Below, one piece after another: positions 2,080-7,537 of a DNA stretch of 64,000 bases. The position numbers were made by a program, and so were the translations under genes. The notes beneath the pieces were generated by a model. It was not told the DNA's origin, did not search any database, and saw only the letters and a program-made list of their open reading frames with translations. Every line of letters starts with the position of its first letter. The first letter of the stretch is position 1. Source of the stretch: Alphaproteobacteria bacterium (GTDB lineage Bacteria > Pseudomonadota > Alphaproteobacteria > Micropepsales > Micropepsaceae); the NCBI GenBank assembly GCA_021325375.1, contig JAJPHG010000019.1, forward strand, positions 1-64,000, given 5' to 3'.

Positions 2080-2520
2080 TTACTCTAGCGCGGCTGGCAC
2101 ACGTTCGGACGTGACGGGTGCGTGACGGGTCCAACGGTCCCCCGGTTTTGCGATGTAGTTCTGAAACACATATCGCCAAGGGATGAAAGGGATGAGCACA
2201 ATGACCGGTCCGATCTCAAAGAAGCCTTTGCGTGTGTCTGCATCGACCTGATTGGCGAGCCACAGCGGCAGTGCGATGCCCACGAGCCAGATCGATTTCC
2301 ACAGGATTTCGTAAATGAGCAGGGGAAGCATCTTAAGCGGATATCGCACACCCACGATTGAAAGGCTCGCCAGCGCCAGAAGAAAGCAATGCGCTACTCC
2401 GGTCGCCTGAGTCCAATGGCCATGATGAAGGAACAGCCGTATCTGGATAAAGCCTTCCGCGACCGCAAGCAGAGCATAGAGGGCACGTAGCAGGTATAAG
2501 CGGAACAGCGATATGTTCAT
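2080..2520 (-). CDS. Small integral membrane protein of unknown function
   Basis: This 146-residue protein has about four hydrophobic segments: around residues 8-27, 40-60, 64-90 and 103-118. It ends in a soluble tail after PWRYVFQNYIAKPGDRW. The combination RYPL-MLPLL-YE-LWK in the middle and IPWRYVF-NY near the end recurs in a family of uncharacterised proteobacterial membrane proteins. A purine-rich stretch (GGGGGATT) lies just upstream of the ATG. It lies 88 bp downstream of the DUF2306-type gene on the same strand and is probably cotranscribed with it. No catalytic motif is visible. Confidence 0.6.
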   Translation of the reverse strand: MNISLFRLYLLRALYALLAVAEGFIQIRLFLHHGHWTQATGVAHCFLLALASLSIVGVRYPLKMLPLLIYEILWKSIWLVGIALPLWLANQVDADTRKGFFEIGPVIVLIPFIPWRYVFQNYIAKPGDRWTRHAPVTSERVPAALE

Positions 2521-2608
2521 TGTTGCAATCCCCCTGGGCGCGATATTTCTCCAAATCGTGCTCTCAGCGCGATCGTGCCCTGTCGCGCAAGCACCTCACC
2601 TACGCATG

Positions 2609-3385
2609 TCAGTCTGAAGCCAGACGCACCTGTTTCGCCCATCCCGTCAGCCTCACGCGGATCATCCAGAAGATGAGAAGGCCAAGCGGCAAGAGCATCG
2701 GCGCGAGGAACATCGGCGGAATATGAAACGGTCCCGGCAGGAGCCGTGCCAGGCCATTGCCGAATCCAGACCCGAAGGAGAGGAAGAGAGCCGTCAACAT
2801 GCGCCAAAGATGGCGTGCCACGCGAGCCGGACCTTCGATTCCGCCTTGAAGGACCAACCTCGCATCTCCTATGGCCGCCACAGCAGCAATCGCGGTGACC
2901 ATGTAGGTGGCGAATAACAGCTGCCCCTTAACTCCGGGCACGGCGCCGGCCGCTGCGGCGATGGACAAACCGCTTAATCCCACGCAAATGCACAGGCTTG
3001 CCGCCAGTGCGAATTTCTCGGCGCGGCCAACGGTGCGTTGCTTTCGTCTCACGATCAGCCAGCCCGTGGCAACGAGATAGAACGTGAGAATTGCGCCCAG
3101 GAGATTCGACATCTGACCGGGTATGATGATCGCGAGCCAGGCCGCGAAGGTAGCCATCACCAGCATCGAAACAACGAACGTCGTTCCGGCAGTGCGATGA
3201 AGCCTTTCGCCTTTCCGTGCGAAGGCTGCGACGGTGCCCGATACAAGCCCAACAGTGCCGCAGCCAACGTGAACGACGTAAGCGAGGCTGGTCGCATCGT
3301 GAAGTGCCGTTTCGGGGAAAGGAAGGTTCACGGCTACGACCGCTCCTTGACTTCTACGTTGACATATGTCAGTACTGTCTGACAC
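2609..3385 (-). CDS. DUF2306-type multipass membrane protein
   Basis: This protein of up to 258 residues has about seven membrane segments. The HVGCGTVGLVSGTVA and KGERLHRTAG motifs near the N-terminus fit the DUF2306 group of predicted membrane proteins. The longest start is a GTG at 3385, which lies inside the double palindrome at 3360-3391, so transcription is probably controlled by the divergent winged-helix protein. No good ribosome site precedes the GTG, so it may be leaderless or start slightly downstream. The arrangement of membrane gene, shared operator and small HTH gene suggests that the regulator controls both its own gene and this one. The substrate or role is unknown. Confidence 0.65.
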   Translation of the reverse strand: MSDSTDICQRRSQGAVVAVNLPFPETALHDATSLAYVVHVGCGTVGLVSGTVAAFARKGERLHRTAGTTFVVSMLVMATFAAWLAIIIPGQMSNLLGAILTFYLVATGWLIVRRKQRTVGRAEKFALAASLCICVGLSGLSIAAAAGAVPGVKGQLLFATYMVTAIAAVAAIGDARLVLQGGIEGPARVARHLWRMLTALFLSFGSGFGNGLARLLPGPFHIPPMFLAPMLLPLGLLIFWMIRVRLTGWAKQVRLASD

Positions 3386-3391
3386 ATGTCA
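3360..3391. promoter_or_regulatory. Double palindromic operator between divergent genes
   Basis: TGACATATGTCA at 3360-3371 is a perfect 12-bp palindrome. TGACACATGTCA at 3380-3391 is a second, near-perfect copy, and the two are 20 bp apart centre to centre, about two helical turns. They overlap the proposed start codons of both divergent genes (GTG 3385 on minus, ATG 3386 on plus). This is the expected place for binding sites of the adjacent winged-helix regulator. The assignment to that regulator is inference. Confidence 0.6.
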
Positions 3392-3715
3392 CAGCGGACA
3401 GATAAGAATGTCAAGTCGTTGAACGGTAGCCAGTTGCTGGCGGCACTGAGCGCTCTCGCGATGCCTCACAGACTAAGGATCATTGCAGCGCTTGCCTTGG
3501 GTGGCCGAAACTATGTCAGCCAGCTCGCACGCGAAGTTGGCATCAGCCGACCGCTGCTGCATCTGCACCTGCAAAAGCTGCAGGAAGCCGGCTTGGTCAC
3601 AAGCAAGCTCGAGCTTTCGAGCGATGGAAAAGCTCTCAACTATTTCGAAGTCACGAGCTTTGACATTGCACTTACGCCTGAAACGATCGTCAAAGCGGTA
3701 AAGACGCTTAATTGA
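3386..3715 (+). CDS. ArsR/MarR-like winged-helix transcriptional regulator
   Basis: This 109-residue protein carries a compact winged helix-turn-helix. After L-ALSALAMPHRLRIIAAL come the helices around YVSQLAREVGISRPLLHLHLQKLQEAGLV, then a wing at SSDGKALNYFEV. This is the layout of ArsR-type repressors. There are no cysteine pairs for metal binding, so metal sensing is unlikely and another signal is implied. The ATG at 3386 lies inside the second palindrome with no Shine-Dalgarno sequence, so the mRNA may be leaderless. A small membrane protein follows after 21 bp in the same orientation, and a DUF2306-type membrane gene is divergent. It probably represses its own divergent promoter region. 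Confidence 0.7.
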   Translation: MSQRTDKNVKSLNGSQLLAALSALAMPHRLRIIAALALGGRNYVSQLAREVGISRPLLHLHLQKLQEAGLVTSKLELSSDGKALNYFEVTSFDIALTPETIVKAVKTLN

Positions 3716-3736
3716 GGTTCGAACGGAGATCCCAAA

Positions 3737-3994
3737 ATGGCTGCGTATATGTACATGCCCACGCTCTTGCTGATTCTCAGCACGGTCTTGATCGTTTTTG
3801 GAATGAAGTACGTCTCCGAGGCACTGCAAGCACGCTCACGCGCGGCCAACGAGCGCTCATTTCGACTCTTTGCCGAAGACGCTCACGCAATCCAATCACA
3901 ACACGTTGCATTGCTCTCGTCGATCCAGTCATCAATTTCGGACATCGGCACACGACTTGGCCAAGTGGAAAGGATTCTGAAGGAGGTCGGCTGA
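3737..3994 (+). CDS. Small single-span membrane protein with cytoplasmic coiled tail
   Basis: This 85-residue protein has one N-terminal membrane segment (about residues 7-24, PTLLLILSTVLIVFGM). A soluble tail rich in Ala, Gln and Ser follows and ends in a short coiled-coil-like stretch (SSISDIGTRLGQVERILKEV). A CGGAG ribosome site sits about 8 nt before the ATG. It follows the winged-helix regulator by 21 bp and is probably in the same operon. I do not recognise a family, and a role as partner of the regulator or of the divergent membrane proteins is only a guess from position. Confidence 0.55.
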   Translation: MAAYMYMPTLLLILSTVLIVFGMKYVSEALQARSRAANERSFRLFAEDAHAIQSQHVALLSSIQSSISDIGTRLGQVERILKEVG

Positions 3995-6257: not shown

Positions 6258-7537
6258 TCACGCCTCGACGCCGACAGGGATCGCATAGCCGGCGCGCGGG
6301 AGCAGCAGGCGCAGCAGCGGCCCCGTCATCACCGTCGTCGCCACTGCCATGATCACGAGCATGGTGAACACGTTCTGCAGGATAAAGCCGAGATCGAAGC
6401 CGATGTTGAGCACGATCAACTCCATCAGCGCGCGCGTGTTCATCAGCGAGCCGAGAATGGTGGATTCCTGGTGCGCGAAGCCGGCGATCCGGCTGGCGAT
6501 ATAGACGGGGATCATCTTGCCCAGGATGGACGCGGCCAGCACCAGCGCTAGCCACTGCCAGTCCGATGCGCTCGTCAGGCCCAGTACGTTCGTGCGCAGG
6601 CCCGTATAAGTGAAGAAGACCGGTAGGAAGAACACCAACACGAATTTTCCGATCTGCGCGCGCCAAGCCTCGACGAAGGCCTTGTTGTGGTGAAACAGCA
6701 ACCCGGTCAGGAAGCCGCCGAAGATCGTGAAGATGCCGAGGAAATACGTGCATATGCCCATCGCGAAGATCAGACAGACGATCACCGTCATCAGGTTCGG
6801 CGGAAGCTGGCCGCCCTTCACCGGGAATCTGGTCAACAACCAGTTCACGGACGGCCTGAGCGCAAACCAGGCGACACAGGCCAGAAGAGCAATTCCCCCG
6901 ATCTGCCAGCCGATCGCTGTCATGGAAAAGCGGGCCGAGGCGTAAGCCGAAATGCCCGCCAGCAATATCCAGCCCGTGACGTCGTTGACGGCGGCGGCCG
7001 AGATGGCGACCACGCCGATCTCCGTTCGCGTCAGGTCGAATTCGCGCAAGATCCGGCCCAGGATCGGCACCGCCGTGATCGCGAGACCGACGCCGAAGAA
7101 CAGGCTGTAGGTCAAAGGATCGATGTGCGGCGCCAGATAGGGCGCGGAAAGATGCCCGATCCCGAAGCCCAAAGCGAAAGGCACCGCCACCGACGCCGCC
7201 GCGATTCCGATCGTGCCGTTGCGGTTCTTCGGGCGCGTCAGGTGGCCAACTCGAAATCAGTTCCGATCTGGAACATCAAAAGGACCAGCCCGATCTGGCT
7301 GATGATGGTGATCGGCGCCGACGCCTTCGCGCCGAACAGGAACACCGAAGCGCCGGGAAAGAAGTGGCCGAACAGGGATGGGCCGAGAATCAGGCCGGCG
7401 AGGATCTCCCCGATCACCCCGGGCTGACCAAGCCGCCGCAGAATCTGGTTTCCGGCGCGCGCCGCCGCCATCATCACGATCAGCTGGAGCAAGGTGACGA
7501 AAAGCAGGTTCTCGGTCTGATGGACGGATGAATGCAC
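6258..7537 (-). pseudogene. CPA2-type cation:proton antiporter, split by a one-base frameshift
   Basis: Two ORFs on the minus strand together make one Kef/CPA2-type exchanger of about 425 residues with roughly twelve membrane segments. The upstream ORF (7238-7537) ends at QIGTDFELAT and the downstream frame opens at LTRPKNRNGT. Adding one G in the GTTGGCC run near 7245 restores DFELGHLTRPKNRNGT without any gap. The break therefore looks like a single-base deletion, either real or a sequencing error. The second half retains TAVPILGRILREFDL and AAAVNDVTGW, which carry the conserved polar residues of the family. The gene ends 7 bp from the fuconolactonase stop (convergent). An operator-like palindrome lies 45 bp before its start. 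Confidence 0.75.

Follow-up and report, generated by a model that had tools for sequence, protein, structure and literature searches.

Several described systems are close to the locus analyzed here. In Rhodobacter sphaeroides, the transcript of the acuR-acuI-dddL operon is proven to start at the AUG of acuR, with no Shine-Dalgarno (SD) sequence (PMC3017554), and in Bacillus subtilis the membrane protein SdpI sequesters SdpR at the membrane (PMC1626106). With the former, our locus would share an autorepressor gene as the first gene of the operon, an inverted repeat over the promoter and the prediction of the same layout in several lineages (PMC3017554), and with the latter an ArsR-type autorepressor that is co-transcribed with a membrane protein (PMC1626106). 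In winged-helix fold and in family, the regulator is also like the ArsR/SmtB metalloregulators (ArsR, CmtR) and NolR, and its small partner resembles PspB, being short, with a predicted N-terminal membrane helix that runs into a coiled coil, and giving weak PspB profile matches in 9 of 41 family members.

The locus lies in a stretch of 64,000 nucleotides (nts) from a Micropepsaceae genome (contig JAJPHG010000019.1, positions 1 to 64,000), hereafter called the window. From its comparison with homologous loci, we consider it quite probable that two palindromes in the window serve the ArsR-like gene at 3386-3715 as a double operator, where bound dimers would occlude the promoter, with a leaderless start in most of the family and probable control of the divergent genes.

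Conservation of the palindrome pair

The window contains TGACATATGTCA, a perfect 12-bp palindrome, at 3360-3371 (predicted operator site 1) and TGACACATGTCA at 3380-3391 (predicted operator site 2), in which the regulator gene has its ATG start codon. The letters and coordinates that the earlier note had given for the two palindromes were exact. The sites are 20 bp apart from start to start and enclose an 8-bp gap, GTACTGTC (3372-3379, plus strand), of which the best -10-like hexamer is TACTGT (3373-3378). Taken alone, the window gives only weak evidence for such a pair, which is only mildly improbable there: when 300 random 64-kb sequences were generated with a first-order Markov model, 42 of them (about 14%) held two near-perfect 12-bp palindromes that were nearly identical and at most 60 bp apart. 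The statistics of the window alone are therefore indecisive, and conservation must carry the argument. No further exact match of the palindromes was found in the 4.77-Mb genome to which the window belongs, and a single-site scan of this genome for a wider regulon, with one mismatch allowed, returned four further sites, scattered singly, and nothing beyond them; a control pattern gave one.

Homologues of the regulator were collected from genomes of the same genus and, for GTDB as a whole, from a single genome of each species, which resulted in 86 loci, the window included, spanning Alpha- and Betaproteobacteria, Acidobacteriota and Bacillota. All of them have a 12-8-12 pair 5′ of the ArsR-like gene, and the consensus of each site is TKWCAYRTGWMA. 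An automatic search allowing gaps of 4-13 bp detected 83 of the 86, with the best upstream pair at a gap of exactly 8 bp in each, and the three exceptions (L021, L045 and L073) have weaker sites that were readable by inspection with the same spacing. Genomes were also scanned for the pair pattern. Of 61 relatives, counting the genome of the window, 5 have it, once per genome and always with the ArsR-like gene. Of 28 genomes with other homologues, 21 have it, a single time in all but one, which has it twice. As a control, the pattern was reversed, and no match was obtained in the same scans. The sole additional pair is located in Rugamonas sp. A1-17, 5′ of a gene named DUF4386 by its likeness to a gene of locus L009; this family is also present within several of the regulator operons. 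The second Rugamonas pair (L103, 1501-1560) precedes a 6-codon ORF, ATGAAATTGAAAATATCTTAA, which begins in site 2 and is followed by the DUF4386 gene, and looks like a copy of the arsR promoter with a truncated start.

The same pair, which the earlier note had proposed to seek in relatives, was thus present in every homologous locus compared, at a fixed spacing, and, judged by this conservation, the pair at 3360-3371 and 3380-3391 is real. Its fixed spacing across phyla, its overlap with both core promoter and start codon, and its occurrence beside the ArsR-like gene, with the one Rugamonas site as exception, support the view that it behaves as the predicted operator of the adjacent gene.

Promoter geometry and the start of the regulator gene

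Information content was calculated for 57 dereplicated sequences of the group in which the start codon in site 2 is in frame with the regulator, aligned on site 2. Both sites stand out as peaks, and so do TTGAC (-29 to -25) and TATTnT (-6 to -1). In this group, TTGAC and TATTnT are separated by a 17-bp spacer, TATTnT, the -10 box, falls within the 8-bp gap, and A/G-T-G stands at +6 to +8 in site 2, 6 nts past the -10 box; the boxes in the gaps of homologues are TATTCT, TATTGT or TAAAAT. The site-2 ATG or GTG is in frame with the regulator in 68 of the 86 loci, and upstream of it an SD sequence is missing in nearly all in-frame sequences. Because this RTG lies where transcription is expected to start and has no SD, leaderless and self-repressed transcription is predicted, and for most family members there is strong indication that the arsR transcript has no leader.

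Judging from the reading frames, leaderless expression is not universal. The site-2 RTG is out of frame in 18 of the 86 loci, most of which have a GGAG-, AGGA- or GGA-like motif before a downstream start. These loci include relatives of the same genus, several with TTGA 4 bp farther upstream, and the downstream start of the same-genus homologues is accompanied by a GGAG-, AGG- or AAGGA-type ribosome site. On a protein tree of 110 columns and weak resolution, approximately seven changes between the in-frame and out-of-frame states were counted. In Cohnella ginsengisoli (L051), one extra G in a run of G shifts the site-2 ATG out of frame compared with its nearest relatives, and this out-of-frame state may be a frameshift.

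The layout suggests that one dimer of the regulator would bind each 12-bp site and that the two dimers, two helical turns apart, would sit on one face of the DNA. The dimer at site 1 would cover the spacer between -35 and -10, and that at site 2 the start of both transcription and translation, with the consequence that RNA polymerase would be occluded and arsR, together with the following gene of a small membrane protein, would be shut off. In most of the family, the first transcribed base would be the first base of the site-2 start codon, and in the genome of the window the same pair would also lie upstream of, and act on, the divergent membrane-protein genes at 2080-3331. The fixed spacing of two turns, the position of the sites on both sides of the -10 box and the overlap with the start codon argue for occlusion and autoregulation. 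Repression by direct occlusion, as the earlier note had suggested, is consistent with predicted sites that extend over core promoter and start codon at fixed spacing.

In the window, whose promoter is a poor match to the leaderless layout, the -35-like TTGACT (3347-3352, plus strand) is displaced upstream by 4 bp relative to most family members, a shift shared with several same-genus relatives, and lies 20 bp from TACTGT, which is a weak match; a sigma-70 scan of the window promoter gave no sigma-70-like match. The 109-aa ORF is in frame with the plus-strand ATG at 3386, which lacks an SD, and from the behavior of the family a leaderless arsR mRNA in this genome is likely, not certain. The pair could be the operator while arsR is transcribed here with a short leader and translated from TTG 3419, as in the congeners, since several same-genus loci with the shifted TTGA use TTG or another downstream start with an SD, and since the conserved part of the protein begins at approximately residue 14. 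However, no convincing SD is found ahead of TTG 3419 and, in contrast to the congeners, ATG 3386 is in frame here. We consider a short leader unlikely, though by no means negligible.

The regulator, its partner and the divergent genes

The regulator (3386-3715, plus strand, 109 aa) is an ArsR-like winged-helix protein according to its matches with Pfam HTH_5 (1.2e-10; 41.5 bits, cut-off 22) and HTH_20 (38.5 bits, cut-off 27), both above the curated cut-off. Its score of 44.9 bits with the NCBIfam metalloregulator model is under the cut-off of 55, and that with the SdpR model, 21 bits, is under the cut-off of 100. The protein has no cysteine, and any cysteine at all occurs in 9 of the 86 aligned rows, in 8 of these only near the variable N-terminus. 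Because of the missing cysteines and the score below the metalloregulator cut-off, a metal is unlikely as the inducing signal, in agreement with the metal-free ArsR-like protein described before. The recognition-helix region SRPLLHLHL is invariant in the 86 rows.

Plasmid relatives of the regulator, mostly less than 60% identical, served as a partly independent check. The 12-8-12 layout recurs in all seven records examined, Streptomyces included, and each has a small partner of the 85-aa type after the regulator, in some cases assigned by position and shape and not by a significant profile score. The plasmids of Niallia, Peribacillus, Paenisporosarcina and Exiguobacterium have an 8-bp gap with TAAAAT, and their annotated start is the site-2 ATG. 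The layout was readable by eye in three Streptomyces records. Two of them have GCA..TGC sites and SRALLQVHL instead of SRPLLHLHL as the recognition helix, and the third has SRPLLYMHL with sites near the family consensus. Altered site bases thus go with an altered recognition helix, in two sequences only, which fits binding by the encoded protein. Any repressor could have sites that flank a core promoter in this manner, and the palindromes might bind a different, perhaps global, regulator and adjoin arsR by chance. This is very improbable, given that the pair is confined to genomes with this arsR and to this locus, that its spacing is kept from Proteobacteria to Bacillota and Streptomyces, and that site bases and recognition helix changed together in the two Streptomyces.

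Directly 3′ of the regulator, the double operator of which we take the pair to be, a gene of the 85-aa type is found in 86 of 86 loci. In the window it is located at 3737-3994 (plus strand), with an SD, GGAG, at 3725-3728. The structure model is one continuous helix from residue 3 to 84 (pLDDT 89.8), which we read as a membrane span at the N-terminus that continues into a coiled coil. Among the Pfam matches of the family, PspB is the commonest (9 of 41 members, best 1.7e-4, below the cut-off); the 85-aa protein of the window has no Pfam PspB match, and the score of one plasmid relative, 14.7 bits, is under the cut-off of 25.6. When sequences of the PDB were searched with profiles of the 85-aa family and of the 146-aa family described below, no meaningful match emerged. 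The third gene is variable and encodes a four-helix membrane protein of 146 aa in the majority of loci and DUF4386 or DUF6010 elsewhere. Later operon genes mostly encode membrane proteins, and in some loci the third gene is not obviously of this type. The third gene in L030, L045 and L073 (Azospirillum, Rhizobium and Bradyrhizobium) is a common, apparent membrane protein of about 110 aa (..RIMGPVHGLAF..). In Streptomyces, the regulator and its small membrane protein are followed by a Sensor-domain membrane protein and then an ABC transporter ATPase (S. decoyicus plasmid, L123), or by an MMPL-type transporter (two other Streptomyces). The partners are uncharacterized membrane proteins, in agreement with the earlier note.

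Since a PspB-like membrane protein is invariably encoded by the next gene, the mechanism that we consider the likeliest is a release of the repressor via its membrane partner, as in SdpI/SdpR; our judgment of the double operator does not extend to this step. More tentatively, the operator pair, the ArsR-like repressor and the PspB-like protein may form a conserved signaling cassette of four phyla, in which the membrane protein would sense the envelope state and capture or release the repressor, which in turn would occlude a leaderless promoter over its own start codon. Such a cassette would precede varied cargo, mostly membrane proteins (146-aa family, DUF4386, DUF2306-like, DUF6010, MMPL, Sensor/ABC).

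On the minus strand, the window encodes a DUF2306-like membrane protein (2609-3331; Pfam DUF2306, 3.2e-6, below the curated cut-off) and a 146-aa membrane protein of an unnamed family (2080-2520), with four long helices in the model (pLDDT 90.9) and a homologue near the regulator in most loci. A fold search with this model gave no PDB match. The DUF2306-like gene is part of a 258-aa ORF that can open at GTG 3385, and the earlier note had proposed that the palindromes cover both divergent start codons, neither with a ribosome site, so that both genes would be leaderless and directly blocked by one repressor. However, an in-frame GTG at 3331 has AAGGAG (3348-3343, minus strand) 11 nts 5′ of it, and the same-genus homologues show no conserved residues before approximately residue 19-28 of the longer ORF and start near there. 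GTG 3385 was rejected on account of this AAGGAG and the non-conserved first 18 or so residues, and the gene most likely starts at GTG 3331 (240 aa). In none of the other 85 of the 86 loci compared was a divergent membrane gene found at this place, and direct blocking of two leaderless starts is very doubtful. What holds is that one start codon, ATG 3386, is covered and has no SD, and that the arsR transcript is predicted to be leaderless in most of the family, from the layout of -10 box and RTG and the missing SD; for the minus strand, with AAGGAG before GTG 3331, coverage, leaderless transcription and the lack of a ribosome site are not supported.

The 146-aa family gene, third in the regulator operon in most relatives, is found in the window in the divergent unit behind the DUF2306-like gene, an arrangement seen in no other of the 86 loci. 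Because a gene that normally belongs to the arsR operon sits in this unit, the operator pair probably controls the divergent genes (2080-3331) as well, in this one genome. A second copy of the 146-aa family is present on contig 43 of the same genome (L116, 266323-266724), with no operator and no regulator found adjoining. Inverted repeats 5′ of a gene can form hairpins, but it is hardly credible that translation is controlled here by such a hairpin at the 5′ end of the mRNA. This reading was rejected for the main group, in which site 1 and the gap are upstream of the predicted start, with the -10 box between the sites, and would hence be outside the mRNA.

Elsewhere in the window, a Na+/H+ exchanger is apparently split into two minus-strand ORFs in different frames (6258-7190 and 7238-7537), the larger of which has a Pfam match beginning at profile position 83; this suggests either a frameshift or an error in the sequence. 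At 1375-1550, within 1 kb that has no clear gene, there are several short repeats of the (A)ACAGGGAATTT type.

Comparison with known systems

In the literature searched, no description was found of the regulator/PspB-like cassette or of an ArsR-type double operator that holds its own start codon, nor any mention of DUF4386, and the pair of genes for an ArsR-like repressor and a small membrane protein appears on this basis to be an undescribed cassette. Within approximately 32 bp, the operator interlocks with the -10 box and the start codon, at a spacing that is fixed from Proteobacteria to Bacillota and, in part, Streptomyces, so that the specificity of the regulator and the start site would have to evolve together. 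The locus may thus serve as a compact natural case for leaderless translation and for the co-evolution of repressor and operator. Moreover, a testable regulator, site and partner are now attached to membrane-protein families of unknown function, namely DUF4386, the DUF2306-like proteins and the 146-aa family.

Unlike PspB, the small partner is always paired with an ArsR-like gene, no psp genes were seen adjoining, and the window member gives no PspB match. The regulator differs from the ArsR/SmtB metalloregulators in its score (44.9 of 55 bits), its lack of cysteines and its partners, which are not known metal transporters. Compared with SdpR/SdpI, the regulator reaches 21 of 100 bits, and SdpI is polytopic whereas the partner here has one helix. 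The principle of a leaderless autorepressed operon is already known from acuR. However, AcuR belongs to the TetR family and its operator is one TAATAGAC-n6-GTCTATTA repeat, whereas the regulator here is ArsR-like and faces two 12-bp palindromes; the acuR start codon is not described as lying within the operator, acrylate is the inducer, and the cargo of that operon consists of enzymes.
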